Shown here piece by piece: positions 5,264 to 59,396 of a DNA stretch of 64,000 nt. Origin of the DNA: Thiomicrorhabdus immobilis. GTDB taxonomy: Bacteria; Pseudomonadota; Gammaproteobacteria; Thiomicrospirales; Thiomicrospiraceae. Location of the stretch: contig NZ_AP024202.1 of NCBI RefSeq assembly GCF_021654855.1, forward strand, positions 1,302,001 to 1,366,000, read 5' to 3'. The first letter of the stretch is position 1. Each line of letters opens with the position of its first letter. The position numbers and the translations under genes were made by a program. Below the pieces are notes generated by a model. The model did not search any database. It was not told the DNA's origin and saw only the letters and a program-made list of their open reading frames with translations.

Positions 5264-5297
5264 GAATCAAAATAACCAGGCCTGGTCACTTTGATTC
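5264..5297. repeat. Hairpin containing exact palindrome copy (core 5275-5286)
   Basis: The core ACCAGGCCTGGT at 5275-5286 is flanked by further complementary arms GAATCAAA (5264-5271) and TTTGATTC (5290-5297). Together they form a long stem just downstream of the arsC stop. This is one of nine exact copies in the window. A terminator or end-of-gene role for arsC is plausible. Confidence 0.8.
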
Positions 5298-5326
5298 AAC
5301 CGTGAAAATGTAGAGTTGTTCTACGG

Positions 5327-5683
5327 TTAGATGATTTCCAGTACATTTTCTGGTGGCCTTCCCATAATGGCTTTGTTGCCGACTCTAACAATGGGTCTTT
5401 CAATCAGTTTTGGATTTTCGACTAAAATAGCGAGCCATTCATCATCAGAACGCTTATCTTGTTTTGTTAAACCTAGTTCGGTAAACAAATCCTCTCCGGT
5501 TCTGACAATCTCTAAGGGCGTTACTTTCATCAACTCACACAACTCGGCTAGCTCTTGTTTATTTGGCGGATTTTCAAGGTAACGTATTTCATCCACTTGA
5601 TAACCATTTTCATTGAGTATTTGTAAAGTATTACGGCTTTTAGAGCATCGAGGGTTATGATAAATAACAGCTGATTTCACCAT
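5327..5683 (-). CDS. arsC: ArsC-family reductase (arsenate reductase, glutaredoxin type)
   Basis: This 118-aa thioredoxin-fold protein carries the ArsC catalytic motif YHNPRCSKSRNTL near its N-terminus, with the single active cysteine in NPRCS, and the later PIVRVGNKAIMGRPPE segment typical of glutaredoxin-dependent arsenate reductases. Length is standard. It starts 2 nt after the xseB stop, so it is the last gene of the dusA-xseA-xseB-arsC run. No arsenite pump or ArsR regulator is nearby. Many chromosomal members (YffB/ArsC-like) are not dedicated to arsenic, so the physiological substrate is uncertain. Confidence 0.9.
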   Translation of the reverse strand: MVKSAVIYHNPRCSKSRNTLQILNENGYQVDEIRYLENPPNKQELAELCELMKVTPLEIVRTGEDLFTELGLTKQDKRSDDEWLAILVENPKLIERPIVRVGNKAIMGRPPENVLEII

Positions 5684-5685
5684 GA

Positions 5686-5904
5686 TCAGTCCTCAGATTG
5701 ATTACTAGATTCCGTTTCCAAACGGGTGTTAAGCGCTGTTTCCACCGCTTCAATTCGCGATTTACAAAGCTGATAGGCTCTTGTAGCATCATCAACCATT
5801 GGGACAAGTTCATCAATATCGACCTCGCCACTATTGGCAAGTTTTTGGGCAATTTCTTGTAGTTTTTGATAATTTTCTTTAAAACTCTCTGCTGTTTGAG
5901 CCAT
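5686..5904 (-). CDS. xseB: Exodeoxyribonuclease VII small subunit
   Basis: A 72-aa mostly helical protein, FKENYQKLQEIAQKLANSGE in the N-terminal half, with the LCKSRIEAVETAL segment typical of XseB. It forms ExoVII with XseA and degrades single-stranded DNA to oligonucleotides. It lies 69 nt downstream of xseA and just upstream of arsC on the same strand. Family length is about 70-80 aa, so it is complete. Confidence 0.93.
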   Translation of the reverse strand: MAQTAESFKENYQKLQEIAQKLANSGEVDIDELVPMVDDATRAYQLCKSRIEAVETALNTRLETESSNQSED

Positions 5905-5973
5905 GTTGTTTTATTCCTTTAGGTTCAATTTGTTACAAGCAATAGATTAGCCGAATTACAAGACCCGACTCCT

Positions 5974-7611
5974 CTAATGCGTTTTGATTTTCTGGTTTTT
6001 TTCGATTTTGGCTTCAATCATCCCATCGCTGAACTCAAGCTCGACGGTCTCTTGTTCAAGTGCCTGTTTCGCCGTCGTAATCGGTTTGCCATCGGCATCT
6101 TTGACAATGCTAAACCCCCTGTTTAACTGGGATTTTGGCCCGGAACTTAAAATAAACGCAATCCATTGAATTATCTGCTGTTTTTGAGTGCTCAAAGAAC
6201 GTTTGGCCTCAAGATTAATTGTCTCTTTTAACCGCCCTACTTCTTTTTCAACCAAATTCACCTTACTCTTAACTTCAGCGTTAATGCTGTGGTAGATTGC
6301 ATCGATATCCTGAGTGACTCTCGAAATTTTAGACTCGCTGAGACGGCTTATTTCATAATGAATCGGCTCTACTTTTTTTTGCCAGCGGTAGACACAACCT
6401 AAACTATTCTGAGTGATTTCATGGTTTAGCTTATTGATTTTATGGTGTAAATTCTGCACTAGAATTCGACTGGACTGTTCAATATGTGTCCAGTTTATTT
6501 GAGCATTTTTTGCTTGCTGAACGATTTGGGTTTTAATAAAACCAATCACCTTACTTGGTGTATCAAAGCGGCTATGGGCCACCTCATCCAATATGGTGTT
6601 ATCGCGTTCATGACCGATACCCGAAAATACAGGAAGTTCTAATAAGCATAGGGTTTCTGCAATAGACTCGATATTAAGCATATTCAAATCCAGCTTTGCG
6701 CCTCCACCGCGAATGATCACTAACGCATCAAAGGGTTTGGTTTGATGAAGAGACTTGACCGCAGCAATCGCTTCCAGCATTTCACCCTCTACCGCATCCC
6801 CTTGAAAGCTACTGTAAAAATAAGTGAACTCACAGAGTTTAAATTTCTGTAATTGATCGGCGTCCGCTCTAAAGTCCCCCAATCCTGCAGCTTGAGGTGG
6901 AGCAATCACCGCTATCCTGAAATAGTCTGCCGGCAATTGGTGGCCTTTATTTTGTTGGTAGATACCCTTTTGCATCAGGTTTTTTCTGATTTGATTGAGT
7001 CGTTGCTCAAGCTCACCTAAAGTGTAGCTTGGATCTAAATCCTGGATAACCAGTGAGAAACCATATTGCTCATGAAAACTGACTTCTGCAAGCAGCAACA
7101 CTTTTTGCCCAATCGCCAATTCAGAACCCGTTTCAAGGCTGAAACGCTCCAATAACCGTCCAGCCTGGCTTTGCCAGATCATCGCGCGACAGTTCGCAAT
7201 GGCCTGACCGCTATCATTGGTTTCGGTTAACTCTAAATAGACATGTCCACGACGAGTATTGATATTGGCGATTTCAGCGACAACCCAAACCCCACCTCGA
7301 AAACCTTGTCTGAGAACCGTTTGAACTTTATTGAGGACAATAGAAAGTTTGGTTCCTTTCTGCTCTTCAGTGGCATTGGAAGGACTCGCAAAACCAGTTT
7401 GCTCAAAGTTCAATGACAGTGTTGAATTATCAATACTGTCGGCTGAAACATTGTGATCAAGCGGATTGGTACTTGGTAACCATTTTTTAAAGCCATCTAA
7501 ACTATCATTTAACGCTTCTGGCACATACCAGCGTTTGCTGACCGCATCCCAGCGTGCACCCAGTGCCTTGGCTTGATCCTTCTCTCTAAAAGGGACTTCT
7601 AAAAATATCAT
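5974..7611 (-). CDS. xseA: Exodeoxyribonuclease VII large subunit with N-terminal DUF5710-like domain
   Basis: The protein is 545 aa against about 450 for the usual XseA. Residues 1-46 (IFLEVPFREKDQAKALGARW, then KRWYVP) form a DUF5710-like module, followed by a linker to about residue 85. The normal XseA then begins (KLSIVLNKVQTVLRQGFRGG): OB-fold to about 190, catalytic domain with DALVIIRGGGAKLDLNMLN and GIGHERDNTILDEVAH, coiled coil, and C-terminal LNRGFSIV. The start is supported by a 4-nt ATGA overlap with dusA, and no internal Met could give a normal-length protein. The fused domain is described elsewhere on DNA-processing proteins and may aid substrate binding (inference). Confidence 0.94.
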   Translation of the reverse strand: MIFLEVPFREKDQAKALGARWDAVSKRWYVPEALNDSLDGFKKWLPSTNPLDHNVSADSIDNSTLSLNFEQTGFASPSNATEEQKGTKLSIVLNKVQTVLRQGFRGGVWVVAEIANINTRRGHVYLELTETNDSGQAIANCRAMIWQSQAGRLLERFSLETGSELAIGQKVLLLAEVSFHEQYGFSLVIQDLDPSYTLGELEQRLNQIRKNLMQKGIYQQNKGHQLPADYFRIAVIAPPQAAGLGDFRADADQLQKFKLCEFTYFYSSFQGDAVEGEMLEAIAAVKSLHQTKPFDALVIIRGGGAKLDLNMLNIESIAETLCLLELPVFSGIGHERDNTILDEVAHSRFDTPSKVIGFIKTQIVQQAKNAQINWTHIEQSSRILVQNLHHKINKLNHEITQNSLGCVYRWQKKVEPIHYEISRLSESKISRVTQDIDAIYHSINAEVKSKVNLVEKEVGRLKETINLEAKRSLSTQKQQIIQWIAFILSSGPKSQLNRGFSIVKDADGKPITTAKQALEQETVELEFSDGMIEAKIEKNQKIKTH

Positions 7612-8684
7612 GCACGATCTTCCATGCGCTGTATTTCTTGATTGACCATTTGATAGGCTTCCTCAACCACATTGACTCCAGCACAGGTTTTAAAGGCATT
7701 TTCCGACAGATGTCTACGCCAAATGCGCCCACCAGGTAAACCATGAAACAACCCTAACATGTGACGGGTAATCTGAATAAGTTTTCCACCATCCGTCAGA
7801 TGCTGTTCTATATAAGGATACATTTTTTCAAGAACCTGCTCTCTAGTAATGATAGGAGCGTTTTTTGCATAATATAAACGGTCTACCTCAGCAAGCATAT
7901 AGGGCTGTTCATAGGCTGCTCTACCAAGCATTACACCATCCACTGCAGAAAGGTCTTGGTAAGATGAGTAATGCGCCAAAGCATCCGAATGAGTTTTCAA
8001 ACCGCCATTGATTGCGATATCCAATTCAGGGAACTCTTGCTTAAGTCTATGCACCCAGTCGTATTTCAACGGGGGGATTTCGCGATTTTCTTTTGGTGAC
8101 AAACCTTGCAACCAGGCTTTACGAGCATGAACAATCAAGCCGTCCACACCCGCTTCAACCAGGCCTGCTACAAATTGATGTAAAATTTCAAACTCTTCTT
8201 GGTCATCAATCCCGATTCGGGTTTTCACGGTAACCGGAATATCAACCTTGGCTTTCATTGCCGAAACATTTTCAGCCACCAACTCGGGATGACCAAGTAG
8301 ACAAGCGCCAATCATATTGTTTTGTACACGATCGCTTGGACAACCGACATTCAAATTGATTTCGGAATACCCCCACTCTTCACCTAAAGCGGCACAGGTT
8401 GCCAAATCCTTTGAATCGCTACCACCAAGCTGTAAAACCACTGGTGCCTCACAATCATTATGGCCTAAAAAACGCGGTAAATTGTCACCGTAGATAATCG
8501 CACCCGTAGTAACCATTTCACTATATAACCAGGCCTGCTCAGTTAACTGGCGATGAAAATAACGGCAATGCTTGTCAGTCCAATCCAACATGGGCGCAAC
8601 GGAAAATCCAACCGCACTGTTGTTATGACTCAGGTTTTTCGATAGCGCTCGCTCTGGAATGATTGAATGTGTTTTGTCTGTCAA
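7608..8684 (-). CDS. dusA: tRNA-dihydrouridine(20/20a) synthase
   Basis: A flavoprotein that reduces uridine 20/20a in the tRNA D-loop. The 358-aa protein has the TIM-barrel start SVAPMLDWTDKHCRYF, the catalytic cysteine C115 in NLNVGCPSDRV, the DusA-specific HARKAWLQGLSPKENR segment that separates it from DusB/DusC, and the C-terminal GLPGGRIWRRHLSE. Length is slightly above the family norm because of a polar N-terminal tail of about 25 residues. It overlaps xseA by 4 nt (first gene of the run ending in arsC) and is divergent from relA. Confidence 0.95.
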   Translation of the reverse strand: MTDKTHSIIPERALSKNLSHNNSAVGFSVAPMLDWTDKHCRYFHRQLTEQAWLYSEMVTTGAIIYGDNLPRFLGHNDCEAPVVLQLGGSDSKDLATCAALGEEWGYSEINLNVGCPSDRVQNNMIGACLLGHPELVAENVSAMKAKVDIPVTVKTRIGIDDQEEFEILHQFVAGLVEAGVDGLIVHARKAWLQGLSPKENREIPPLKYDWVHRLKQEFPELDIAINGGLKTHSDALAHYSSYQDLSAVDGVMLGRAAYEQPYMLAEVDRLYYAKNAPIITREQVLEKMYPYIEQHLTDGGKLIQITRHMLGLFHGLPGGRIWRRHLSENAFKTCAGVNVVEEAYQMVNQEIQRMEDRA

Positions 8685-8875
8685 AATGAACTCAACTCAA
8701 ATGAATTTGGTTTAAAAAAATTGAGAGTATTATCGCATTGCATAGCATGAGAAACCAGGCCATTTAGCCACACTTGTTTAGCAATAAAATCTTTTAGTGA
8801 AAATAGCGGTCTATAGGGTTAAAAACTCGTTAAAATAATTTCCTACAAAAATAACATAAGAATACTGGCACACCA

Positions 8876-11032
8876 ATGAATCCTATCCAGACACTTTATG
8901 ATGAAGTATTCAAAGATTTTACCTTAACAGAAGTTCAACATGACCGTTGCATGCAAGCTTGTGGAATGGCTCTTGAAGCGGATAACCTGCCTGAAAAAGG
9001 CCGAGTACGCGGTTACGCTGTCGCACAAATACTGGCCTCTCTCAAGCTGGATGAGGAGACCCTGATAGCTGCTTTAGTCAGCGATGCCAATCTTGAAGCC
9101 ATCTATCCGATTGAGAACATCGTTGAGCAGTTTGGTAAAGCCACCGCTAAATTGGTTGAAGGGATACGAAAGCTTAATAAGTTTAAAGATTTTGATATCG
9201 AACGTAAGTCGGATGATGTACAGAATGAGCGCTTAAGACAAATGTTGCTCGCCATGACGTCTGATATCAGAATCATGATAATGAAACTGGCTTACCGTGT
9301 AGCACGTCTTAGAGACCTTAAACACGAGAGTGAAGAGGTGCGCCATCAGATTGCCGCCGAAACCGAGCTGATATTCTCACCGTTGGCGAATCGTTTGGGG
9401 ATTGCCCAACTTAAATGGGAATTGGAAGACCTCTCTTTTCGCTACCTTCACCCGGAAGAATATAAGAACATCGCAAGTCAGTTACAGTCCAAACGTTCAG
9501 AACGTGAAAACTACATAAAGATTGTTCTGGATACGCTTGATGAAATGCTTAAGCAACATCATATCAATGCCAAAATCTCCGGCAGACCCAAGCATATTTA
9601 CAGCATCTGGAAGAAGATGAAACGCAAAGTGCTGCCAATTGAAGAGCTGTATGATCTGCGTGCCGTGCGTATCTACGTTGACAATATTCAGATGTGTTAT
9701 GAAACATTAGGGCTTATCCATAGTCGCTGGAACTATGTGCGCCATGAATTTGACGACTATATAGCCACTCCCAAAGAAAACGGCTACCAATCGATCCATA
9801 CAGTCATTATCGGCCCGGAAGGAAAAACTGTTGAGATTCAGATTCGCACCCTTGAAATGCATCACAATGCAGAATACGGTGTCGCTGCTCACTGGCGTTA
9901 TAAAGAAGGTGGAAAAAGCACCTTTGACGAGAACCTGGAGCGGAGCATTGCCAATGTAAGACAGTTGCTGGAAAACTCGGATGATCCCGATATTTTCAAA
10001 GAGATCAGCACCGAGCTCCAGAGTAAACATATTTACATCATGACTCCGCAAAATGAGATCATCACTCTCAGACAAGGGGCTACCCCGCTCGACTTTGCCT
10101 ATCAAATCCATACCGAGTTAGGCCATCGTTGTCGAGGTGCCAAAGTCAATGGACGAATTCAACCGTTGAGTTATGTTTTGAATACCGGTGATAAGGTTGA
10201 GGTTTTAACCATCAAAAATGGTGAACCAAGTCGTAACTGGCTGAACCCTAACCTCGGCTACCTAACAAGCTCTAGTGCGAGAAACAAAGTTAGAAACTGG
10301 TTTAATAAACAGAATAAAGCCGAGAACATCACAACCGGTGAATCTTTATTTAACCGAGAAGTTAAGCGTTTACATGCGGAAACGGTCTCAAGCAAAAAAG
10401 TAGCGGAACGTTTCAAGCTGGAATCGGTTGAAACTCTATTTGAGGATATTGGTAAGGGACGAATCAATGAACGTCAACTTACCAATGCAATACAATCTGA
10501 GCTACGACCAGAAAGAACTCAAAACAGACAGCAGCGTATCTTCAGTTTCGAACAGTCGGCTGAAAAAATTGAGCAAGCTCGGGCTTATGTCATTGGTGCG
10601 GTACATTTGACCACCAATCTGGCGCCTTGTTGTGAGCCTAGACCGTATGACGATATTGTCGGCTTTGTTACCCGTGGGCGCGGGATTACCGTGCATAAGC
10701 ATGATTGTCCCAATATCCTAAACTTATCGCATGATGATCAGCGTCGGATTATTGAGGTTTCTTGGGATAAAAACCAGGCTGAACAGCCATGCTTTACGGC
10801 GGATCTTCAGGTTATCGCTTTTGACCGTAAAGGCTTGTTAAGGGATGTTATGGCAACCCTGACGGATTTGGATATCAACTTGATTGCTTCGCAAACCAAA
10901 ACCAATACCCAAGAAAACAGCGTTTTGATGAATCTGACCCTGGAGTTGGATTACTCAACCAACCTGGGTGACTTGTTGGATCATATTGAGATCATTCCAA
11001 ACGTCGAATCGGTATCCATTAAAACGGACTGA
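8876..11032 (+). CDS. relA: GTP pyrophosphokinase RelA, (p)ppGpp synthetase with degenerate hydrolase domain
   Basis: This 718-aa long RSH protein makes the stringent-response alarmone at stalled ribosomes. The N-terminal HD region is degenerate: the His-Asp pair expected in bifunctional enzymes is replaced by AALVSDAN (65-72). The synthetase domain (about 210-350) has EFDD at 291-294, the RelA-type acidic motif (SpoT has RxKD), followed by ENGYQSIHT. TGS (about 390-450), a cysteine/histidine zinc-finger region (APCCEPRPYDDIVGF) and a C-terminal ACT domain follow. It is therefore the synthetase-only RelA. It faces a tRNA array whose promoter looks stringently controlled. Confidence 0.95.
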   Translation: MNPIQTLYDEVFKDFTLTEVQHDRCMQACGMALEADNLPEKGRVRGYAVAQILASLKLDEETLIAALVSDANLEAIYPIENIVEQFGKATAKLVEGIRKLNKFKDFDIERKSDDVQNERLRQMLLAMTSDIRIMIMKLAYRVARLRDLKHESEEVRHQIAAETELIFSPLANRLGIAQLKWELEDLSFRYLHPEEYKNIASQLQSKRSERENYIKIVLDTLDEMLKQHHINAKISGRPKHIYSIWKKMKRKVLPIEELYDLRAVRIYVDNIQMCYETLGLIHSRWNYVRHEFDDYIATPKENGYQSIHTVIIGPEGKTVEIQIRTLEMHHNAEYGVAAHWRYKEGGKSTFDENLERSIANVRQLLENSDDPDIFKEISTELQSKHIYIMTPQNEIITLRQGATPLDFAYQIHTELGHRCRGAKVNGRIQPLSYVLNTGDKVEVLTIKNGEPSRNWLNPNLGYLTSSSARNKVRNWFNKQNKAENITTGESLFNREVKRLHAETVSSKKVAERFKLESVETLFEDIGKGRINERQLTNAIQSELRPERTQNRQQRIFSFEQSAEKIEQARAYVIGAVHLTTNLAPCCEPRPYDDIVGFVTRGRGITVHKHDCPNILNLSHDDQRRIIEVSWDKNQAEQPCFTADLQVIAFDRKGLLRDVMATLTDLDINLIASQTKTNTQENSVLMNLTLELDYSTNLGDLLDHIEIIPNVESVSIKTD

Positions 11033-11054
11033 TTATTCTTCCGTAAAATTTATC

Positions 11055-11066
11055 ACCAGGCCTGGT
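11055..11066. repeat. Exact palindrome ACCAGGCCTGGT
   Basis: Perfect 12-bp copy 23 nt after the relA stop codon. Flanks AAAATTTATC and AAGTTTG extend the pairing only imperfectly, so the hairpin is weaker than at 25456 or 45716. Confidence 0.9.
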
Positions 11067-11313
11067 AAGTTTGTCTCCGATTTAAGGCAGCGAACAGGCC
11101 GCCTTCCTCTATATATGCCTAATACACACACCTCTAAACAGCCCCTATTTTCTATCTTAAAAGCAAGTCATTCTGGATATTGTTTGTTTTTTAGTTAGAC
11201 AGCTATGTGTAAATTGATTTACCAGGAAAGAGATTGAGTGAACTACTTTAGTCATCGAAATTGACTGGCCTGAATATGGAATAAGCTAGCTGGTTTAGAA
11301 AACGCTAGGCAAT

Positions 11314-11347
11314 AAAAAACCCGCTAACGATTACTCATTAGCGGGTT
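11314..11347 (-). terminator. Terminator of the tRNA array
   Basis: AACCCGCTAA (11318-11327) pairs with TTAGCGGGTT (11338-11347). The A-run at 11314-11319 becomes a T-run on the reverse strand, directly after the last tRNA. Confidence 0.85.
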
Positions 11348-11355
11348 TATTTATA

Positions 11356-11431
11356 TGGCGTCCCGTAGGGGAGTCGAACCCCTGTTACAGCCGTGAAAGG
11401 GCCGTGTCCTAGGCCTCTAGACGAACGGGAC
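11356..11431 (-). tRNA. tRNA-Glu (TTC), copy 1
   Basis: 76 nt on the reverse strand with encoded CCA end, 7-bp acceptor starting GTCCCG, TTCGACTCC T-loop region and anticodon loop CCTTTCACG (anticodon TTC). It is identical over its length to the second copy at 11636-11711. It is the last gene of the Ala-Glu-Gly-Glu array. Confidence 0.96.
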
Positions 11432-11556
11432 AGATTGTTGTTAAATTTAGTAACTTGAAAACAAGTTGTAAACTTAACGAGTTCTAACACTCTCCAAAGA
11501 GAGAATTAAAGTCTGTTGATGATTGTTATGGCCTAGGTCATCAACACACTCGAAAT

Positions 11557-11631: not shown

Positions 11632-11635
11632 ATAG

Positions 11636-11711: not shown

Positions 11712-11800
11712 ACTATATGTGATAAAACCAGGTTTTATCGATTGCCATCAGATAAAGATACTCGGCCTAGTGAGTTCCTGATGGACTATAATTATCAACT

Positions 11801-13722: not shown

Positions 13723-14763
13723 TCAATAGTTAGTATCGGAACGTATAAAAACCAAAACTTCCTTAAAAAGCCAATAACTCAATAATAAAATCAGGCTTAA
13801 TAAACCAACAAAGACAACGGCACTAAATATCGCAAGGTAAATGTTTTCAAGAGCCTGCGCCAGATACTGAGAGGCCAGCCCATAAGCGGCCAATGGATAG
13901 ACATATGACCACCCCGCCATACTTAAGCCACCGCCAACAAAGAACCGATAATTAACCAGCCAAATCAGCAGCATGACTGAAGCGAAACCATAGCTCAACC
14001 AGCTAAGGATACCCACTGAATCTAGGGTGATAATGCCATTGGCAATATAGGCATCAGAAATGAATAGTGATGCGACACACCCTAAAGAAGGAGGTGCCAG
14101 AAAGATAAACAGACTAGGTCTCAACGGGGCTTGCAATGCTTGGCTAAAAATCAAGCGGTAAAAAAGCGAGGTTGAAAAAACGATCCAAAGAAACAACGCA
14201 ACAGCAAAAAAGAAGTGGCTAACCTCATAAATCCACGTATTTTGTTGGGTGCCAAATGAACCCATCAAGGCAATGACGATAATAAAGTTGGCGGAGAGTA
14301 ATATGAACCAAGTCGGTTTGTGATGGTTGAGCTGAAGATTATCATCAAACAACCAGCCGTTGAGCAAGAACAAGTTAAGCATGAAATGCGCGCTGGCAAC
14401 GAAAACAATGGCATAAAACAATCCGGACAACCAGGCCGGGTCAAGCAGATAATAACCATCTAAAACCTGGTAAAGACTCATTAAAAAAAGAATGGTTGTC
14501 AAACTAACGGCTGGCAGGAATGAGCGTCTAAAAGGATCGTACCACTCCTTAATCAGGTTATTCCTATACCCAGATCGGATTAAATGCCAAACATAATGTG
14601 TTGAAACAATAAAGAAAACCACCCAGCCGTAGATTAATATCGCAATTGAAATATCCATCTCCAGATTAAACAGCTCCATAAGGTGGCGGGCGTTCAAGCC
14701 TGCTCCAATCAACCCCATGGGCATGCCAAAATATAGAATACTGGGTAAATAATTTAAGCGCAA
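13723..14763 (-). CDS. TDT/SLAC1-type membrane transporter (TehA-like)
   Basis: This 346-aa protein consists almost entirely of about ten transmembrane helices with short loops. Features of the tellurite-resistance/dicarboxylate (TDT, SLAC1) family are the LFYRLIF...LRPSLFIFLAPPSLG segment, the YVYPLAAYGLAS helix near the end, and the overall length. Members carry small anions. The substrate cannot be read from the sequence. It is divergent from a second member of the same family (14959-15948), with about 195 nt between them. Confidence 0.8.
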   Translation of the reverse strand: MRLNYLPSILYFGMPMGLIGAGLNARHLMELFNLEMDISIAILIYGWVVFFIVSTHYVWHLIRSGYRNNLIKEWYDPFRRSFLPAVSLTTILFLMSLYQVLDGYYLLDPAWLSGLFYAIVFVASAHFMLNLFLLNGWLFDDNLQLNHHKPTWFILLSANFIIVIALMGSFGTQQNTWIYEVSHFFFAVALFLWIVFSTSLFYRLIFSQALQAPLRPSLFIFLAPPSLGCVASLFISDAYIANGIITLDSVGILSWLSYGFASVMLLIWLVNYRFFVGGGLSMAGWSYVYPLAAYGLASQYLAQALENIYLAIFSAVVFVGLLSLILLLSYWLFKEVLVFIRSDTNY

Positions 14764-25455: not shown

Positions 25456-25481
25456 AAAAGCTACCAGGCCTGGTAGCTTTT
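25456..25481. terminator. Bidirectional terminator built on the palindrome (core 25463-25474)
   Basis: The core ACCAGGCCTGGT is extended on both sides by AAAAGCT and AGCTTTT to a perfect 26-bp self-complementary sequence followed by further T residues. It lies between the convergent EamA and darP genes and looks like a functional intrinsic terminator in both directions. Confidence 0.85.
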
Positions 25482-29877: not shown

Positions 29878-31314
29878 ATGAACCCTCAAGACAAACCGCC
29901 TATTTTGGAGCCATCGCAACCGTCGTTGTCAGATAAGAAAGTCATCTTGGGAATCGATATCGGTACCTCTGGCGTTCGTGCTTGCATCGTTGAAAAAAAC
30001 TACCCATCTTCCGATTCAAGTGAAAACATGTTATTTGAAGCGCACATTGAGATGCCGGTTGCAGAAATCCGTTCAACTAACGGTTTAAACACCCTCGAAA
30101 TCTCTCAGAATCCGCAAATTTGGATAGACACCCTAGAAAGCTTACTTAAAAAAATCGGTCACAACTTCCCAATCAAACAAATAACGCATTTGGTATTGGA
30201 TGCGACCTCTTCAACCGTTCTATTAGTGGACCAAAGCGGCCATGCTTACACTGACGCATTGATGTATAACGATGCCCAATCCGTTTTGCCCGCTAAGGTC
30301 ATTGCCGGACTCATTGAACAATCCGCTGAATTTTCAGGTGCACAAGGTGCTTCAAGCACACTTGCTAAAGTGGCTACCCTGCTTGAACAGAATCCAAACC
30401 TCAGCAAACCGATTATTTGCCACCAAATCGACTTTATAAACCATTATCTATCCGGTGCATTGAACATCACGGATGAAAACAATGCCTTAAAGCTTGGCTA
30501 TAATTCAATCCACCAGGCCTGGCCGAATTGGATTGAAAAGTATCTGAAAACCTTGAACTCGACCATACAACTCCCGCAAGTGGTCAAACCAGGCAGTTTT
30601 ATAGCCATGATTGCACCTCATATTGCCGAACGATTCGGTTTCAGAAAAAACCTCAAAGTAATGGCTGGTACCACCGATAGCATTGCCGGTTTTTTAGCTT
30701 CAGGGGCATCGCAGATTGGCGATGCGGTATCTTCCTTAGGCTCGACACTTGCGATAAAAGCCATCTCAGACAAACCGCTGTTTGATAAACGTTTTGGTTT
30801 ATACAGTCACCGTTTAGGCAATAACTGGTTGGTTGGTGGTGCCTCCAATTCAGGTGGACGGGTTTTATTAAACCATTACAATCTAGCGGATTTGGTTCAT
30901 ATCGTCAAAAGCATCAATAACAAAGACATTGAGGACTTTTTGAAAACCCCAAGGCAAAATTACTACCCACTTAGCCAAGCAGGAGAACGCTTTCCGATAG
31001 CGGATGCCAACCTCCCCCCCAAAATGCCAAAGTCACCGCAATGTGCGGTTGCCGACATTGATGGCAATCAGCAATGTTTGCAAGCACACCAAACCTTTTT
31101 ATTGAATGTATTGACTGGAATGACCGAAATTGAACGCTTGGCTTATCATAAGCTGGTAGAACTCCATCTGCCGCCAGTCAAAAAGATTTTTAGTGTGGGC
31201 GGAGGAACCCAAAACCATGTTTGGATGCAGTTACGTGAAAAACTGATAGATGCCCAATTTTTGCACCCTGAACACCAACAAGCCGCCTATGGTGTGACTA
31301 AACTGATTGATTGA
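29878..31314 (+). CDS. FGGY-family carbohydrate kinase
   Basis: This 478-aa protein has the actin-like ATPase fold: phosphate-1 loop LGIDIGTSGVRA (about residues 24-35), the central DSIAGFLASGASQIGDAVSSLG region (adenosine/phosphate-2), and GGGTQNHVWMQL near the C-terminus. FGGY kinases phosphorylate sugars such as xylulose, ribulose or glycerol. Sequence alone does not settle which. In this window the closest metabolic partner is the CbbY-type phosphatase at 31941, which acts on a pentulose bisphosphate, so a pentulose substrate is a reasonable guess. No sugar transporter is nearby. Confidence 0.85.
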   Translation: MNPQDKPPILEPSQPSLSDKKVILGIDIGTSGVRACIVEKNYPSSDSSENMLFEAHIEMPVAEIRSTNGLNTLEISQNPQIWIDTLESLLKKIGHNFPIKQITHLVLDATSSTVLLVDQSGHAYTDALMYNDAQSVLPAKVIAGLIEQSAEFSGAQGASSTLAKVATLLEQNPNLSKPIICHQIDFINHYLSGALNITDENNALKLGYNSIHQAWPNWIEKYLKTLNSTIQLPQVVKPGSFIAMIAPHIAERFGFRKNLKVMAGTTDSIAGFLASGASQIGDAVSSLGSTLAIKAISDKPLFDKRFGLYSHRLGNNWLVGGASNSGGRVLLNHYNLADLVHIVKSINNKDIEDFLKTPRQNYYPLSQAGERFPIADANLPPKMPKSPQCAVADIDGNQQCLQAHQTFLLNVLTGMTEIERLAYHKLVELHLPPVKKIFSVGGGTQNHVWMQLREKLIDAQFLHPEHQQAAYGVTKLID

Positions 31315-31805: not shown

Positions 31806-31817
31806 ACCAGGCCTGGT
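31806..31817. repeat. Exact palindrome ACCAGGCCTGGT
   Basis: Perfect copy 33 nt after the HopJ stop and immediately before the terminator at 31823-31862. Flanking bases ATC and AAT do not extend the pairing further. Confidence 0.9.
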
Positions 31818-35998: not shown

Positions 35999-36010
35999 AC
36001 CAGGCCTGGT
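35999..36010. repeat. Exact palindrome ACCAGGCCTGGT
   Basis: Perfect copy between the 35373 and 36045 genes. The flanks add one more pair (C before, G after), and TATTTTG follows, so it could act as a weak terminator. Confidence 0.9.
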
Positions 36011-37620: not shown

Positions 37621-39384
37621 ATGATAAAACACCCTAAAATCGTTCACCGAACCCCTTCACAAGAAGTTTATGACACCGCTAAACAACTAGGATTAAGCGA
37701 CTTTCAAGCACGCTTAGTTGCCAATAGAACGGATCAAACCGAGCAACTGGATGAAATTGTTTTTCCAAAATTAAAACACATACAGCATCCCTCTGCCTTA
37801 AAAAATATTGAAGAGGCGGCACAAATCATTGTCAAAGCCATTCAGTCAGATGGTGCGATAGTACTCGCGACCGATTATGACACTGATGGTGTGACCTCTG
37901 CCTGGGTTGCGACAACCGCGTTATGTGATTATTTCAATGTTGCAAAATCCCGCATTGTCCATGTAATTGGTGACCGTAAAACCGGTTACGGCATTACCGA
38001 TGATGTGGTCAAGCGTATTTTGTCAATCGAGCAACCCATCGATTTGGTTATCTCCGCAGACCAAGGCTCAAGTGATGAAGATCGGATTGCCGTTTTAAAA
38101 TCGCATGGCATCGATGTTTGTGTCACCGACCACCACCAAATCCCGGTAAGTGGAGTACCTCAAAGTGCCATCTGCACGGTCAACCCACAACAATCCGGCT
38201 GTGAATACGATAAGACCATTGCCGGTTGTTTTGTCATTTTCCTGGTCATGACCCAAGTCCGCCAAACTTTAATCAAACAAGGCCTACTAGAAAAAGACAG
38301 CCCGTCTTTAAAGTATTTGGCTTTAAATGTCGCTTTAGGCACGGTGGCGGACAGTGTGAGCCTGAAAAGCCCGAATAACCGCGCCATTGTGTATGCCGGT
38401 TTACAATTGATCAACCTGTTCCAATCCCCAGCTTGGCAAGCTTTACGTCAACTGAATGACAACCAAGGGATGCCATTTGATGCAGAATTTCTGGGCTTTC
38501 AAGTTGCCACCAGAATCAATGCCGCAAGTCGTGTAAGTGATGTCACCACCGCCTTTAAGTTTCTAACCGCTGGCAATGTCAATGACGCCATGAGCTATTT
38601 ACAACAGCTTGATGAAGACAATCAAAACCGCCGCGCCCAACAAGAGATCATGCTTCAGCAGGCACACCAGCAAGCTCAACAGAGATATACCGACACGACC
38701 TATTCCATGACTTTGAAACTCAATGGCAATGCCGGGATCCAAGGAATCATCGCTTCTCGAATTGGTGAACAATATGGTGTTCCAACGGTAGCGATGACCG
38801 ATTTGGAGGACGGCACCTTAGCGGGTAGTGCCCGCGGCATCGTGCCGGACATTGATTTACGCGAAGCTTTTCAGTGGATGTCTGAACAAAAAAACGACTT
38901 ATTCCTATCCATGGGTGGCCATAAAGGTGCGGCAGGCTGCATGATACCGCTTGAGTTTTATGATGAATTTAGCCATTTATTTGAGCAAGCGATTCAATTA
39001 CAACTCGGTGACAGCGCCCCTGTGCCAATAATTGAAACCGATGGTGAATTAGATGACTGGTTACTCACTCCTAATCTCATTGACGAAATCAATGCCCTTG
39101 AACCCTTTGGAAGAGAATGGCCTAAGCCAATGTTTTCTGGTGAATTTACCATTGTGCAGATTAGAGAAGTTGGCCAACAAAAAACGCATTTATCCTGTAA
39201 ATTAAAAACTCCTAGCGGTACGGTATTTCAAGCGATTTACTTTAACGCAAAGCAAAGTGAAAACGACCCTACGCCGTTTGTTACTGGCGAAGTGGTGGTT
39301 TGTGCCTATCAACCTGCTTTAAACAACTTTGCCGGCAGAACATCGTTGCAATTACGCATCAGCGCAATGACGAGCATCGAGTAG
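37621..39384 (+). CDS. recJ: RecJ-like single-strand DNA 5'-3' exonuclease (DHH family)
   Basis: A 587-aa DHH/DHHA1 phosphoesterase. The motif I DYDTDGVTSAW, motif II-type SADQGSSDEDRI and motif III VTDHHQIP carry the metal-binding acids and DHH, and the DHHA1 domain has SMGGHKGAAGC. RecJ repairs and recombines DNA. Motif II differs from the usual VDNGI, so this is a divergent branch of RecJ. The location beside thrC/hom and the RpfE-like gene fits recJ neighbourhoods in other gammaproteobacteria. Convergent with thrC. Confidence 0.85.
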   Translation: MIKHPKIVHRTPSQEVYDTAKQLGLSDFQARLVANRTDQTEQLDEIVFPKLKHIQHPSALKNIEEAAQIIVKAIQSDGAIVLATDYDTDGVTSAWVATTALCDYFNVAKSRIVHVIGDRKTGYGITDDVVKRILSIEQPIDLVISADQGSSDEDRIAVLKSHGIDVCVTDHHQIPVSGVPQSAICTVNPQQSGCEYDKTIAGCFVIFLVMTQVRQTLIKQGLLEKDSPSLKYLALNVALGTVADSVSLKSPNNRAIVYAGLQLINLFQSPAWQALRQLNDNQGMPFDAEFLGFQVATRINAASRVSDVTTAFKFLTAGNVNDAMSYLQQLDEDNQNRRAQQEIMLQQAHQQAQQRYTDTTYSMTLKLNGNAGIQGIIASRIGEQYGVPTVAMTDLEDGTLAGSARGIVPDIDLREAFQWMSEQKNDLFLSMGGHKGAAGCMIPLEFYDEFSHLFEQAIQLQLGDSAPVPIIETDGELDDWLLTPNLIDEINALEPFGREWPKPMFSGEFTIVQIREVGQQKTHLSCKLKTPSGTVFQAIYFNAKQSENDPTPFVTGEVVVCAYQPALNNFAGRTSLQLRISAMTSIE

Positions 39385-39415: not shown

Positions 39416-39428
39416 ACCAGGGCCTGGT
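39416..39428 (+). repeat. Palindrome variant with one inserted G (ACCAGGGCCTGGT)
   Basis: A 13-bp version, with outer C/G pairs and GCTTTTT following, just after the recJ stop. It could terminate recJ ahead of the stronger hairpin at 39457. Confidence 0.8.
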
Positions 39429-41138: not shown

Positions 41139-42191
41139 TTAAAGGCTGTTCAGCGGTTTTTTAAAACGCCAAAACCGGTTCAGATGTGACGGTTTTAAAT
41201 GGGCACGATATTCTTGACCCAAATCCAACAGCAATGAATCGATCTCATCCCTTTTGAGCGCTTGCAGCAATGGTGCAAACCAATTTTCTTCCAACTGCTG
41301 TAAAAGCGTAAGCCACTCATCCAACTGCAGATTATCCAACTTATCCGCAACACTATCCAAGCAGATAAAATGTTTATCTATTTCTCCATTGCCAGGGTCG
41401 GAAAAACCTGCAATCTGATTTAACCAGGCCTGGTAGCTTTCCGGTTCGGCACAATAATGGGATTGCGTTAAGTTAGCCATGCCCTGCAAGTATGCATGAT
41501 TTGAATGAATGGACGCATCGGTTCTGATTAGCAGTTTATCAGCCTCTATTTTTCCCTCACCCCAAACCCAGACACTGTTGATTTCCGGCCAGCCTTGTTC
41601 TCTACGGGCTTCATTGACCGGATGGGTATAAAACAGCATTTGCGTTTCATTTAAAAGTTGACGCCAATACTGCGCGGCATTGCCTTTGGGGTAAAACGCA
41701 TTAACCGATTGATAAGCCAGTTTTTCAATATCGGTCGTTTGAATATCAACCGGTTGTACAATCGATAGATACCAGTGCTGGCTACTCGCCCAAATTAGCT
41801 CAACCTTGTCTTCTGCAAAATGTGCATTAAATTTTTGCAAGAGAGCTTTTGATTCTTGCTCTGTAATCTGCAAAGCTTTGCCAGGAACCAAGACCAAGGT
41901 ATCCCTGTCAGGAATCATTTGCACCGGGTCAACACTAAGCCAGAAATGATTGGGATTGAACTCATCGAGTTCCGCACTGGCCTTGGTTACAGCAATTGGC
42001 AAGCAACCAGGTTGATGAAACAAAAAACTGGCTTGCTCATAAAAACTTTGTGGCTTGACGGCGAACTTATCCGCTTTAGCCAGCAATGTCTGCAGTGCCG
42101 GCAGCTTTAGGTCTTTTAAAGAGGCTTGTGCCTCTTTAACCCTCAAAGCATCGAGTAAACCTGGTATCCATAAAGTAACCGCTTGTGACAA
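41139..42191 (-). CDS. RpfE-like/phosphoglycerate-mutase-related protein
   Basis: A 350-aa protein I recognise as resembling the RpfE-type, phosphoglycerate-mutase-related proteins that sit beside recJ and thrC in Xanthomonas and other gammaproteobacteria. Segments LWIPGLLDAL, VKPQSFYEQASFLFHQPGC, DPVQMIPDRDTLVLVPGKAL and INSVWVWGEG are conserved wording. No catalytic metal ligands are obvious to me, so the function is open. The gene contains one exact palindrome, read as YQAWLN. It is separated from hom by a terminator. Confidence 0.65.
   Translation of the reverse strand: MSQAVTLWIPGLLDALRVKEAQASLKDLKLPALQTLLAKADKFAVKPQSFYEQASFLFHQPGCLPIAVTKASAELDEFNPNHFWLSVDPVQMIPDRDTLVLVPGKALQITEQESKALLQKFNAHFAEDKVELIWASSQHWYLSIVQPVDIQTTDIEKLAYQSVNAFYPKGNAAQYWRQLLNETQMLFYTHPVNEARREQGWPEINSVWVWGEGKIEADKLLIRTDASIHSNHAYLQGMANLTQSHYCAEPESYQAWLNQIAGFSDPGNGEIDKHFICLDSVADKLDNLQLDEWLTLLQQLEENWFAPLLQALKRDEIDSLLLDLGQEYRAHLKPSHLNRFWRFKKPLNSL
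41423..41434. repeat. Exact palindrome ACCAGGCCTGGT inside a gene
   Basis: Lies inside the RpfE-like gene and is read on the reverse strand as Tyr-Gln-Ala-Trp-Leu (codons TAC CAG GCC TGG TTA). One of three exact copies in coding sequence. Confidence 0.9.
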
Positions 42192-45715: not shown

Positions 45716-45739
45716 AAAGCGACCAGGCCTGGTCGCTTT
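45716..45739. terminator. Terminator built on the palindrome (core 45722-45733)
   Basis: The core ACCAGGCCTGGT is extended by AAAGCG before and CGCTTT after, forming a 24-bp perfect self-complementary sequence between the convergent Mth938 gene and nlpD. Adjacent A and T runs support termination in both directions. Confidence 0.85.
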
Positions 45740-50038: not shown

Positions 50039-50050
50039 GCCAGGCCTGGT
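50039..50050. repeat. Palindrome variant GCCAGGCCTGGT in the eno-ftsB gap
   Basis: 11 of 12 positions match the consensus. It occupies the 24-nt gap between the eno stop and the GTG start of ftsB, 3 nt from that start, exactly where a Shine-Dalgarno would sit. The only candidate site is the AGG/TGG within the repeat. Confidence 0.85.
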
Positions 50051-50059: not shown

Positions 50060-51373
<1,314 letters not shown>

Positions 51374-52282: not shown

Positions 52283-53999
<1,717 letters not shown>

Positions 54000-54099
54000 T
54001 GAATTAATTTAACTATAAAAGACTTAGTTGAGGTTATTTAAGCTAAAAAATGCAAAAAATAAACACAAAATTATTTTGAATAAAAATCGTTGCCTTGAT

Positions 54100-55548: not shown

Positions 55549-55574
55549 AAACACCTCTAAGAAAAGAGGTGTTT
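55549..55574 (-). promoter_or_regulatory. Stem-loop burying the tilS ribosome binding site
   Basis: Two 10-nt arms, AAACACCTCT and AGAGGTGTTT, pair perfectly around a 6-nt loop. The 3' arm, ending next to the ATG, contains the whole Shine-Dalgarno AGAGGTG. The stem could hold tilS translation down, or act as an accA 3' end structure; there is no T-run for termination. Confidence 0.75.
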
Positions 55575-55587
55575 AACAGAGCGAGAA

Positions 55588-56544
55588 TTAAGCTGATTCA
55601 AAATTCCCATAACCCATATATCGTTGATATCTTGTTGCTACCAACTCTTCGATAGGTTTGGCCTTCAATGCGTTCAACTGAGCGATTAACGCATTTTTCA
55701 CACTCTGAGCAGACGCTTCATGATCTCGATGAGCTCCACCCAATGGTTCTGGAATGATTTCATCAACCAATCCTAATGATTTCAAACGTGTTGCAGTAAT
55801 CCCTAACGCTTCAGCCGCATCGGGTGCATTCGCTGCATTTTTCCATAGAATGGAAGCACAACCTTCTGGAGAAATAACAGAATAAGTGCTGTATTGCATC
55901 ATCATGGTCACATCACCGACACCAATCGCCAAAGCCCCACCAGAACCACCTTCACCAATCACGGTACAAATAATAGGCGTTTTCAACTCAGACATCTCGA
56001 TTAAGTTTCTCGCAATCGCTTCACTTTGACCACGTTCTTCTGCGTTGATACCTGGATACGCACCTGGGGTATCGATAAACGTAACAACAGGAATATGGAA
56101 ACGCTCAGCCATTTTCATCAAACGTAACGCTTTACGATACCCCTCAGGACGTGGCATACCAAAGTTACGACGAATCTTCTCTTTGGTGTCACGGCCTTTT
56201 TCTTGAGCGATAACCATAACTGATTGACCATTTAATCGAGCAATACCTGCAACAATCGCTTCATCATCGGCAAAAGCACGATCACCATGCAACTCTTTGA
56301 AATCCGTAAAAATCGATTTAATATAGTCCAATGCATAAGGGCGTTGTGGATGACGTGACACCTTAGCGATTTGAACATCACTCAATTTTTTGAAAATTGA
56401 CTCAGTTAAATTTTTACTCTTTGCTTCTAAAGCTGAGATTTCCTGTAATAAATTCATATCTGCGCCATCTAAATGGCGAAGTTCATCAATCTTGGCTTCT
56501 AATTCGGCAATAGGCTGTTCAAAATCTAAAAAATCAAGTTTCAT
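55588..56544 (-). CDS. accA: Acetyl-CoA carboxylase carboxyltransferase alpha subunit
   Basis: A 318-aa subunit forming malonyl-CoA with Acc[21 protein letters not shown] at the start and [34 protein letters not shown] and [16 protein letters not shown] are the AccA blocks. The ATG at 56544 is chosen because it gives the normal length; an in-frame upstream start would add 33 unrelated residues. tilS follows, the classical accA-tilS pair. Confidence 0.97.
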
Positions 56545-56800
56545 ATTATTTTTTGTCCGTCTTATAAATAGAGGGTTATGCAATTCAGAGCATTTTACCA
56601 AAGTTGCATACTTAATTGCATATGTACATCGGTATTTTGCCAATAAATTTTAAATCTCTGCCGATATCAAATTAATGACAATATCGGCATTAATCCTTGA
56701 AGAGCACTTGCGTTTATTAAAATTCCCTTTAGAATCCTCTACTTCCAAATTTCAGGCTCCGTTTAAGAGTTACCAAAAACAATACACTTAGGACTACATC

Positions 56801-57550
56801 ATGCTTCCCAAAACGTTTACCAAAACCTCTACAACCACAACTTTAATCGCATTATCACTGGTATCAGTCAATGCTTTTTCTGCAACGAACACCTCAAAGA
56901 ATGGATTGTCTGGAACAGGTGAACTGGGCTTTAGCGATAGTACTGGTAATACCGTAAACACCTCTTTATACGGTGCTTTAAAGTTAAATTACACCCAAAA
57001 GAACTATATAATCAAATCCGCAATTGAAGCCGATTACAAATCAGAAAACGGCACTCAAACTCAAGAACGCTATATTGTCAATATCCAAGGAAACCGTTAT
57101 TACTCGGAAGACAAATCTTACTATAGCTTTGTTGGTGCACGATTTGAAAAGAACAAATTCGCTGATATTGAATTAGACAGCACTTTCTCTCTAGGTCTGG
57201 GTAAAACTCTTTATAAAACCGAACAGACCAATCTGAATGGTGAAGTCGGCTTAGGTTATCAAAACACCGACTATGTAACTAAAGGTGCTGATTCAGACTC
57301 ACAAGTAGTCGGCATTGCTAAACTAGACTTCAGCCACCAAATCAACCAACAAGTTGCGTTCACGCAAGATTTATCGGTTAGCGCCGGGGAAAAACAAACT
57401 AAATTTGAGAGCAATACCGGCTTTAAAATAAAAGTGGCGGAAAAGATGAACTTAAAAGCGTCTTATAAATATCGTCACAATGATAGCCCGGCTCCAGGAA
57501 CCAAGAAAACGGATACACAAACGGTCTTGACTTTAATCTACGATTTTTAA
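56801..57550 (+). CDS. DUF481 outer-membrane beta-barrel protein (YdiY-like)
   Basis: A 249-aa protein with a signal peptide (about 1-28, ending VNAFSA) and a body of alternating beta-strand pattern ending in LTLIYDF with a C-terminal aromatic residue, as for outer-membrane insertion. GTGELGFSDSTGNTVNTSLY and YSFVGARFEKNKF are features of DUF481 proteins, which in E. coli (YdiY) are acid-inducible. Start follows AGGA. Terminator at 57593. Confidence 0.88.
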   Translation: MLPKTFTKTSTTTTLIALSLVSVNAFSATNTSKNGLSGTGELGFSDSTGNTVNTSLYGALKLNYTQKNYIIKSAIEADYKSENGTQTQERYIVNIQGNRYYSEDKSYYSFVGARFEKNKFADIELDSTFSLGLGKTLYKTEQTNLNGEVGLGYQNTDYVTKGADSDSQVVGIAKLDFSHQINQQVAFTQDLSVSAGEKQTKFESNTGFKIKVAEKMNLKASYKYRHNDSPAPGTKKTDTQTVLTLIYDF

Positions 57551-57592
57551 ATAAACCAAAACCGCAAACAACGTCATCATGGATGATTAAAC

Positions 57593-57631
57593 AAAAAAAG
57601 CTCGCGAATCACATTCAGCGAGCTTTTTTTA
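57593..57631. terminator. Bidirectional terminator between the DUF481 gene and ycaO
   Basis: AAAGCTCGC pairs with GCGAGCTTT around a 12-nt loop, with an A-run before and a T-run after, between convergent genes. Confidence 0.85.
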
Positions 57632-57677
57632 TTTTCAAGGCTATGAACAATAAATCCCCTGGCCTACCCAGTTTAAA

Positions 57678-59396
57678 TTACGACAAGGCAAACCCTGCTG
57701 ACTTAACTTGATTCGCCTGTTCGTAAATATCCAACAATGCTTGATGCCTTTGACTATTGGTGAAAATATCCAACCCTAAATCCTGGCCATCGAACAATAG
57801 ATCCCCCTCAATATGCAACCAGGCCTGGTCATTTAACGCATCACCAAACAAGAGCTTGGTTGCATCTTTATCAACACAGTCTTCAACCATCATCTCTAAA
57901 CAATACTTTAAGGCGTTATATTTAACCAACCATTTGCTATTTGGATTAACAAAATAGATGGCATCCTGAATCGCTTCAAAAGCACTGTCGTAATCTTTAT
58001 CGGCCAACAATGCCCAAAATTTTAACTCGACGATTTTAAGTTCTGCCCAGAACGTTCCCGGATCAGGCATCAAGCCGATTAGGGAAGCGACCCCTTGATG
58101 GTCACTAAAACCTAAATCATCAATTAGATTGACTAAACCGGAATAGTCTTGAGAGTTTGGCAAATCGATAAGCGCTTCTCTTAATAAACGCCCTATATTT
58201 TGGTTACTGTCAATTAACTCTTCTGTTGGATAGATTTCAGACATGCCTGGCACAATAATCCTGCAGGCTTCAAAACCACAGTGATTGTAATTCGCCACAA
58301 AAACTTGCGTCTCTTGCTGTACGACCAAATCGCATAACTTATCCCATTGAGTTTGGGTATCTCCTGAAAAATCCCAATTCACAAATTCAAAATCATAATT
58401 TTGAGAGATGAAGTTTGCATGAATCAAACCGCTTGAATCGATGAAATGATTTTCAATATTCTCATCTTCCGCTACCGCATAAGCATCAAACACGGGTAAT
58501 TGGAAACCGTCCAGATTCTCCAAATGTCTACCCTGTAGAGATTCCGTTAATGTCCTCTCCAAAGCCACTTCAAAAATAGGGTGTGAACCGAACGATGCAA
58601 AACACGTTCCCGTCTTCTGCTCAAATAGCGTGACATTGATGACTGGGAAATGCCCACCCAATGAAGCATCTCGCATTGAAACCTCGATACCGGCGGCTTT
58701 TAACGCTTCAACCGCTTCAATAATCGCTGGAAACGCCTCAACCACTTCATAAGGGATTTCCGGCAAACATAAGTTCTCACGTAAAATCTTATTCTTAACC
58801 CAGCGTTCAAAAATCTCGGACAAACCTTGAACCTGCGCTTCTAAAGCGGTATTACCAGCCGAAAGACCATTACTCGCATAGAGGTTGCTAAGCAAATTCA
58901 TCGGGAAATAAACAACCTCTTGAGTCTCATTGTTTTTTAATGGAATCGCTTTAACGGTATCTTCTGAATCATTAAAGCTGAGCAGTTCATTGAAACCAAG
59001 CTCATCGGTGCTGTTATAAAACGACCATAATTCAGACGTTAAACATTCATTGATAGTCTGTTCGGTAAAATGCTTTTCATCAGGATAATATAACCAGGCC
59101 TGGTCGGTTTTCTTAACGCTTAACCAGTAATCTGAAAAGAAATAGTTGGTAGATAAACGCTCCAAATATTCACCTAAAGCACTTGCCAAAGTCGATTTAC
59201 GACTGGTTCCCTTTCCATTGGTAAATAGTCCCGGGCAACGCTTATCATTAATATGTAAAGAAAAAACGTTATTTACAGGGTTTAACCAAGAAGCCTCATC
59301 AATCTCAAAATCCATTTTTCTCAAGGTAGATTGCATACGTGCTATGGAGTCTTCTAAACAGGCATCCTTGCCTTTTATATAGGTTAATTCACTCAT
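57678..59396 (-). CDS. ycaO: YcaO protein (ribosomal S12 methylthiolation-associated, full-length type)
   Basis: A 572-aa ATP-binding YcaO-fold protein closely matching E. coli YcaO in layout: YIKGKDACLEDSIARMQ, EASWLNPVNNVFSLHI, FTNGKGTSRKSTLASALGEY, LERLSTNYFF, SNGLSAGNTALEAQVQGLSE and RIIVPGMSEIYP. The E. coli protein potentiates RimO methylthiolation of S12. ATG 59396 is preferred to an in-frame TTG at 59405. Two exact palindromes lie in this gene, encoding DQAWLH and DQAWLY at places where E. coli YcaO, as I recall it, has unrelated residues. Confidence 0.93.
   Translation of the reverse strand: MSELTYIKGKDACLEDSIARMQSTLRKMDFEIDEASWLNPVNNVFSLHINDKRCPGLFTNGKGTSRKSTLASALGEYLERLSTNYFFSDYWLSVKKTDQAWLYYPDEKHFTEQTINECLTSELWSFYNSTDELGFNELLSFNDSEDTVKAIPLKNNETQEVVYFPMNLLSNLYASNGLSAGNTALEAQVQGLSEIFERWVKNKILRENLCLPEIPYEVVEAFPAIIEAVEALKAAGIEVSMRDASLGGHFPVINVTLFEQKTGTCFASFGSHPIFEVALERTLTESLQGRHLENLDGFQLPVFDAYAVAEDENIENHFIDSSGLIHANFISQNYDFEFVNWDFSGDTQTQWDKLCDLVVQQETQVFVANYNHCGFEACRIIVPGMSEIYPTEELIDSNQNIGRLLREALIDLPNSQDYSGLVNLIDDLGFSDHQGVASLIGLMPDPGTFWAELKIVELKFWALLADKDYDSAFEAIQDAIYFVNPNSKWLVKYNALKYCLEMMVEDCVDKDATKLLFGDALNDQAWLHIEGDLLFDGQDLGLDIFTNSQRHQALLDIYEQANQVKSAGFALS
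57818..57829. repeat. Exact palindrome ACCAGGCCTGGT inside ycaO (first copy)
   Basis: Read on the reverse strand as Asp-Gln-Ala-Trp-Leu (GAC CAG GCC TGG TTG) in the weakly conserved C-terminal part of YcaO. Confidence 0.9.
59093..59104. repeat. Exact palindrome ACCAGGCCTGGT inside ycaO (second copy)
   Basis: Read on the reverse strand as Asp-Gln-Ala-Trp-Leu (GAC CAG GCC TGG TTA) close to the N-terminus, in a loop between conserved blocks STNYFF and YYPDEK. Confidence 0.9.

Follow-up and report, generated by a model that had tools for sequence, protein, structure and literature searches.

A dispersed palindrome resembling a DNA uptake sequence in Thiomicrorhabdus immobilis and its relatives

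The stretch of Thiomicrorhabdus immobilis DNA analysed here (the window; 64,000 nt, positions 1302001-1366000 of a 2,539,444-base chromosome on one contig) contained nine exact copies of the palindromic 12-mer ACCAGGCCTGGT, and 14 matches at up to one mismatch compared with a mean of 0.10 in dinucleotide shuffles. The motif was found throughout this genome (labelled G000) and in many genomes of the same family. We see roughly even chances that it is a dispersed recognition site working like a DNA uptake sequence, here in palindromic form. With somewhat less confidence, we suggest that it may be a self-recognition tag for natural transformation, forming an independent system in this sulfur-oxidising family: a true palindrome with a two-fold symmetric receptor, in which dialects would arise by re-spelling of the half-site while A/T contacts are kept one helical turn from the dyad.

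The chromosome contained 446 exact copies of ACCAGGCCTGGT, about one per 5.7 kb, and none of the reversed-word control. A 464 kb sample of G000, consisting of the window and 20 spaced 20-kb stretches, contained 82 exact copies compared with 0.05 expected from an order-2 Markov model; the site counts for G000 below refer to this sample unless given otherwise. Each of the 20 stretches had 1-7 exact copies, on both sides of the GC-skew reversal, and neither a gap at the terminus nor a restriction to it, one or the other of which a macrodomain site like those of SlmA, Noc, or MatP should show, was seen in these stretches from both replichores. The excess that the original prediction had judged far from chance is real and genome-wide, extending well beyond the window region.

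ACCAGGCCTGGT was counted in 60 family genomes (G095 and G096 were left out), of which 26 had 84-718 copies, four had 16-38, and 30 had 0-6. Two of the 30 ACCAGGCCTGGT-poor genomes, G023 and G002, carried a different spelling. Among 365 genomes of the same class beyond the family, 81 had one to five copies and none had more; the motif is restricted to one family. Among named sequences, the CTP synthase (PyrG) of G000 was closest to those of a Piscirickettsiaceae MAG (84%) and Hydrogenovibrio sp. SC-1 (85%), which puts G000 in the family of Hydrogenovibrio and its relatives. Two of the named loci found with PyrG belonged to the family and neither had an exact copy; locus L002 (Hydrogenovibrio sp. 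SC-1) had two one-mismatch copies within 12 kb, and no copies were present in 1.52 Mb from 78 named loci beyond the family.

Dialect candidates were drawn from word counts in samples of motif-poor genomes and counted in 62 whole genomes. Relatives' genomes were read in stretches, and the dialect search covered 1-100 kb each in some of the motif-less genomes. The spelling ACCGGCCGGT occurred 1025 times in G023 (reversed control, 1), where ACCAGGCCTGGT was not found, and at most 15 times in every other genome. The spelling ACAGGCCTGT occurred 224, 154, 119, 113, and 46 times in G017, G005, G025, G002, and G008, respectively, as well as 14-33 times in four ACCAGGCCTGGT-rich genomes (G007, G010, G030, and G021). 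All three spellings were palindromic with a common GGCC centre. The motif-less genomes G013 and G024 had 15 copies of ACCGGCCGGT each, compared with 3 and 2 for their controls, and these may be remnants. A further candidate, GCCATGGC/TGCCATGGCA, suggested for G003 and G019 by 20-kb samples, was rejected with 0-16 copies per genome across the 62 genomes.

In a tree built from concatenated comEC-region proteins of 20 genomes, motif-rich genomes fell in the genera g1, g3, g5, and g6, with the motif-less G003, G055, and G024/G019/G026 interspersed among them. G017, G005, and G025 formed one clade and G023 was sister to a motif-less clade. Because the motif occurs in g1, g3, g5, and g6, the simplest reading of the tree is an ancestral motif, later lost several times (G003, G055, and the G024/G019/G026 clade).

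Placement of the motif followed gene organization. Of 82 exact copies 33 were coding and 49 were intergenic, according to gene calls from a simple hexamer gene finder that misses some genes (e.g., 13723-14763 in the window). The number of copies per kb was 2.8 in convergent gaps, 0.70 in tandem gaps, 0.31 in divergent gaps, and 0.08 in coding sequence. Gaps of up to 400 bp contained 36 copies in 39.7 kb and coding sequence contained 33 copies in 396 kb, with 13 copies set aside in the gap densities (nine in gaps above 400 bp and four at stretch ends). Intergenic density also exceeded coding density in five further genome groups, although with small numbers. There were exceptions to the order of gap types: G046 (divergent gaps with three copies in 1.2 kb), G023 (tandem above convergent), and g6 (practically without convergent gaps).

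Coding copies in G000 favoured one reading frame, giving the residues QAW in 19 of 33 cases. Alignments of ComEC, Fmt, and DprA revealed that sites often lay in permissive codons and that some occupied the same codon within a genus: eight g1 genomes had QAW ahead of the ComEC LDVGQG block, and all six g5 genomes aligned had QAC in Fmt. The remaining sites in these three proteins were each confined to one genome. Within the first 536 kb of the chromosome, exact copies were at most 35 kb apart. A mobile island was considered for this longest gap and rejected, as it was mainly the constrained ribosomal-protein/rpoBC cluster; one two-mismatch copy lay there.

Aligned orthologous sites had the identical 12-mer in 28 of 48 pairs, compared with 4.1 expected from flank divergence, and mismatches per base were 0.106 within the site and 0.275 in the flanks. 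Many of these pairs share ancestry and some were counted in both directions, making p-values indicative. Sites with unaligned 12 bases were dropped. In these alignments, the sites are conserved above their flanks.

The site extended beyond the 12-mer to a dyad of about 24 bp, AAWNYN-ACCAGGCCTGGT-NRNWTT. Among 164 half-sites in G000, position -2 was a pyrimidine in 97%, position -4 was A/T in 91%, and position -5 was A in 74%. Coding copies (66 half-sites) held the same consensus at 99, 90, and 65%, respectively. A/T-richness at positions 10-12 bp from the dyad, about one helical turn, was seen in G000, G023, and the G017/G025/G005 group. Two g6 genomes with 53 and 57% GC in the stretches sampled had A/T at positions 10 and 11 in each of 22 half-sites. 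No conserved sequence was found further than about 12 bp from the dyad in dyad-aligned sites.

The two halves of the G000 site were independent at consensus positions 5, 6, and 8, where the bases were complementary in 117, 133, and 73 of 176 sites (115, 131, and 74 expected). Some excess pairing was seen in G000 at positions 7 (61 vs. 46 expected) and 14 (63 vs. 49 expected), and also in other genomes: positions 6, 9, and 11 in G018; position 9 in the G017 group; and positions 4, 5, and 13 in G023, where the 6-bp core search takes in background sites. Hairpin arms stopped at the 12-mer in 24 of 33 coding copies and 24 of 49 intergenic copies. Since the flanks are kept in coding copies, the site appears to be read on duplex DNA and not as an RNA hairpin. 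It looks like the duplex target of a two-fold symmetric protein, and hairpins may additionally form at a minority of copies.

The family carries genes for competence, as the original prediction had proposed to check. ComEC was present in 56 and DprA in all 62 of 62 family genomes, a ComM-like gene was present in G000, and prepilin-like (N_methyl) genes were present in all 12 genomes searched (eight motif-bearing and four motif-less), so prepilins, tried as a discriminator, did not split the two kinds of genome. In G000 stretch L196, two motif copies lay 23 bp apart (4963-4994) upstream of a lone prepilin-like gene (5227-5745, 172 aa); the motif-less G003 also has a lone N_methyl match.

Uptake appears the best explanation of the motif because its dialects, its conservation, its permissive placement, and its lineage losses match those of an uptake sequence under molecular drive. 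The likeness to DNA uptake sequences claimed by the original prediction gained ground in three respects: dialects that differ by lineage, placement at 3' ends and in permissive codons, and conservation above the flanks. Altogether, the traits of uptake sequences found here included a genome-wide excess of a single word, dialects among related species, permissive placement, and the presence of competence genes. The lack of exact copies in the constrained ribosomal-protein/rpoBC cluster and the regular spacing of listed sites in G036 and G043 (below) also speak for uptake. Under this explanation, a dimeric (two-fold symmetric) receptor, located periplasmically or on the cell surface, would prefer DNA bearing the site, and fragments from kin that carry it would be taken up and recombined more often. 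Sites born by point mutation would then spread and be repaired by molecular drive, while protein constraint and promoters would keep sites out. A change of receptor would change the dialect, and the sites would decay if the receptor lost its specificity. Minor-groove contacts or an aid to bending could be provided by the A/T pairs that lie about one turn of the helix from the dyad.

Known uptake systems offer both likenesses and differences. According to passages of PMC3630211, the DNA uptake sequences (DUS) of Neisseriaceae, with the receptor ComP, share with the motif many dispersed copies, dialects that track the phylogeny, permissive coding sites, and locations at gene ends and in terminators. 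The same source, in part, reports 1294 DUS that overlap as a dyad in Simonsiella muelleri, describes the dyad arrangement in Simonsiella and Kingella, and suggests a dimer (PMC3630211). Given this precedent, an uptake tag in palindromic form would count as a variation on a kind already known. Unlike DUS, the basic unit here is palindromic in each of three spellings, the motif density is lower, the bacterial class differs, a ComP-like receptor was not identified, and the likeness to uptake is one of sequence pattern only. The uptake signal sequences (USS) of Pasteurellaceae, such as that of Haemophilus, also have a core with A/T-rich flanks, which sections of PMC7811141 hold to aid kinking, and they are likewise gammaproteobacterial and have dialects, as portions of PMC12616744 set out.

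Several observations weigh against an uptake sequence. USS are called "not palindromic" in a passage of PMC12616744. At one per 5.7 kb, the motif is several-fold sparser than DUS and USS, the latter having an average spacing of about 1 kb in the relevant part of PMC7811141. One-mismatch copies numbered 42 and exact copies 82 in the 464 kb of G000, the reverse of Neisseria, where one-mismatch copies outnumber exact ones (PMC3630211, in part); 38 of the 42 carried the change in the outer two positions. Spacing of the first 100 of 446 G000 sites was random-like (coefficient of variation, CV, 0.92). The A/T flank preference was weak in G018 and in eight g5/g3 sites (G046 and G033). Motif-less relatives keep comEC (G003, G024, G019, G026, and G055) and dprA, none of the genes searched (comEC, dprA, and prepilins) tracked the motif, and no receptor was identified.

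Competence genes, moreover, are not consistently site-rich. DUS occur more often in competence and repair genes. Across 15 motif-bearing genomes comEC had 0.92 sites per kb compared with 0.19 in other coding sequence; dprA had 0.65 and the ComM-like gene had 0.22. The enrichment in comEC was dropped as a proof of competence, as fmt (0.89) and a periplasmic-binding-protein gene (0.90) were equally rich and the ComM-like gene was poor; an unnamed gene beside the neighbours of fmt reached 1.16. Protein divergence was rejected as the cause of site density (Spearman -0.19, p 0.50, 15 groups). Finally, no report of transformation or uptake sequences in the family was found in the literature searched, nor any publication pairing Thiomicrospira with an uptake sequence, and a word search of the main text of a Hydrogenovibrio genome paper (PMC6501319) returned no competence, transformation, or uptake sequence. 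The original prediction knew of no published family with this sequence, and none with ACCAGGCCTGGT appeared in the literature searched.

Other kinds of dispersed sites were weighed against the same data. It is rather unlikely that the copies are bound by a dimeric protein of the nucleoid-associated or chromosome-organising type and kept by selection for this binding, with dialects that follow the protein. Such a protein would suit the two-fold symmetric site of about 24 bp, the independence of half-sites at the G000 consensus positions, the A/T preference about one turn out, the conservation above flanks, and the scarcity of sites in divergent gaps; it would also suit the spacing in G043 and G036, which was evener than random (CV 0.66 and 0.58 for 42 listed sites each, spacing being calculated from listed site positions only). 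SlmA and Noc bind as dimers to palindromes across the chromosome, and the dispersed copies of the motif resemble their sites. Those sites number in the tens and avoid the terminus, unlike the motif, which occurs in hundreds of copies without a terminus gap in the sample. Further points against a chromosome organiser are the absence of an origin or terminus bias, the ribosomal/rpoBC cluster without an exact copy, the occupation of variable codons with lineage-specific residues, and the lack of the motif in several sister species, which would be odd for such a protein. Improbable, too, is a highly iterated palindrome (HIP) like HIP1 of cyanobacteria, made by methylation-directed mismatch repair around methylase sites. 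The motif resembles HIP1 and the alternate HIPs in being palindromic with a GC-rich core, in replacement between lineages, and in a significance that is little known; alternate GC-rich palindromes replace HIP1 in some lineages (PMC4390886, in part), and the GGCC centre is common to all three spellings here. HIPs accompany methylases (PMC4390886, in part), but the motif accompanied none of three methylase families tested: of the 22 motif-bearing genomes examined, 10 (G000, G017, G021, G023, G025, G027, G033, G039, G043, and G054) had neither C5 (PF00145) nor N6/N4 (PF01555) nor D12 (PF02086) methylases, other families (type I, Eco57I-like) not being searched. The other 12 had at least one methylase match, which in three of them was only a match below the cut-off for one family. 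These absences, the source genome included, weaken the methylation system put forward in the original prediction. The motif is also longer than HIP1 and has A/T flanks, with information reaching 11-12 bp from the dyad, further than in a usual methylase site.

Three remaining explanations are less likely still. A bidirectional, Chi-like signal for recombination hot spots is very unlikely; Chi itself is short, asymmetric, and strand-specific, but the motif is a two-fold symmetric site whose flanks show preferences 10-12 bp from the dyad, and its density peaks at gene ends. The density of one per 5.7 kb would agree with such a signal, as would the variation of Chi among species noted in a passage of PMC3630211. 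Equally hard to sustain is a bidirectional transcription terminator favoured by the family, although copies are enriched between convergent genes and three lay in terminator-like hairpins (25463, 35999, and 39416; 20 kb scanned): the scan total was 20 compared with 20.1 in shuffles, the coding copies (33 of 82) have flanks like the rest, hairpin arms end at the 12-mer in the proportions given above, and G000 consensus positions 5, 6, and 8 lack excess pairing (with a weak excess at some others). The trace of a small mobile element, such as a repetitive extragenic palindrome (REP) or a miniature inverted-repeat transposable element (MITE), is hardly credible. Hundreds of copies, many of them intergenic, would be expected of it, but conservation ends about 12 bp from the dyad and, in the three aligned genes, coding copies mostly substitute residues and do not insert them.

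Within the window, all nine exact copies listed by the original prediction were recovered; no strand is assigned to any copy. Its split of the nine, three coding and six at the ends of genes, agreed with the gene calls (five convergent, one tandem, and three coding). Copies at 5275..5286 and 45722..45733 were convergent intergenic and had no mismatch to the 24-bp consensus (5269-5292 for the first), as did the convergent intergenic copy at 25463..25474, which formed the tip of a terminator-like hairpin, and the copy at 35999..36010, in a terminator-like hairpin with tandem genes on either side. The copy at 11055..11066 lay 23 bp past the end of gene 8876-11032, with two mismatches to the consensus. 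A convergent intergenic copy at 31806..31817 was the exception, its flanks falling outside the consensus at up to two mismatches, which fitted the other eight of nine. The three coding copies all read QAW: 41423..41434 in ORF 41139-42191 (without a Pfam match), and 57818..57829 and 59093..59104, both in the YcaO-family gene 57678-59405.

The original prediction also listed five variants, which were real, and overlooked a one-mismatch copy at 14430..14441 in the SLAC1-family ORF 13723-14763. One-mismatch copies at 8158..8169 and 8528..8539 lay in the same dihydrouridine synthase gene, that at 30512..30523 lay in an FGGY-kinase-family gene, and that at 50039..50050 lay just 3' of ORF 50060-51340 (enolase-like by eye). 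The variant at 39416..39428 had one inserted G (ACCAGG-G-CCTGGT) and lay right after ORF 37621-39384 in a terminator-like hairpin.

Other repeats were seen in the genomes sampled. The motif-less g6 genome G055 (L109, L110, L158, L178, and L179) had a dispersed, non-palindromic AAAATCTGCCAGGTTGGG-like repeat, 10-11 in 100 kb, and the motif-less g6 genome G057 (L111-L112) had a dispersed, non-palindromic AGGGGTAAGGCGAGAAA-like repeat, six in 40 kb. Arrays resembling clustered regularly interspaced short palindromic repeats (CRISPR), by look only, were present in G053 (L107/L108; 28 copies of a CCTAGCCGCGG repeat in 40 kb) and G018 (L141 and L165-L168; 37-38 copies of a GTGGATTGAAAC-containing repeat in 100 kb). 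In G018 stretch L187, three motif cores lay 142 bp apart (5992, 6134, and 6276), two with identical flanks; this 15-kb stretch had 14 core sites and is perhaps a repeated segment copying the motif. G014 (L105, L106, and L136) had an AGACA tandem repeat, with 22 overlapping counts of its 10-mer in 60 kb.

Parts of PMC1939737 and PMC7811141 name two families with uptake sequences, Pasteurellaceae and Neisseriaceae, and a passage of PMC1939737 describes the function of these sequences as something yet to be discovered. If the motif is an uptake tag, it would be the first in this family. It would be an independent palindromic case and, with dialects and several losses in one family, a natural experiment. 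To our knowledge, it would also be the first uptake tag whose unit is palindromic in each spelling. One could then look for the receptor as a gene varying in step with the dialect, and free-living bacteria would offer a test of the drive model. If the motif is instead the site of a chromosome protein, that site would stand out for its unusual abundance and unusual variability.

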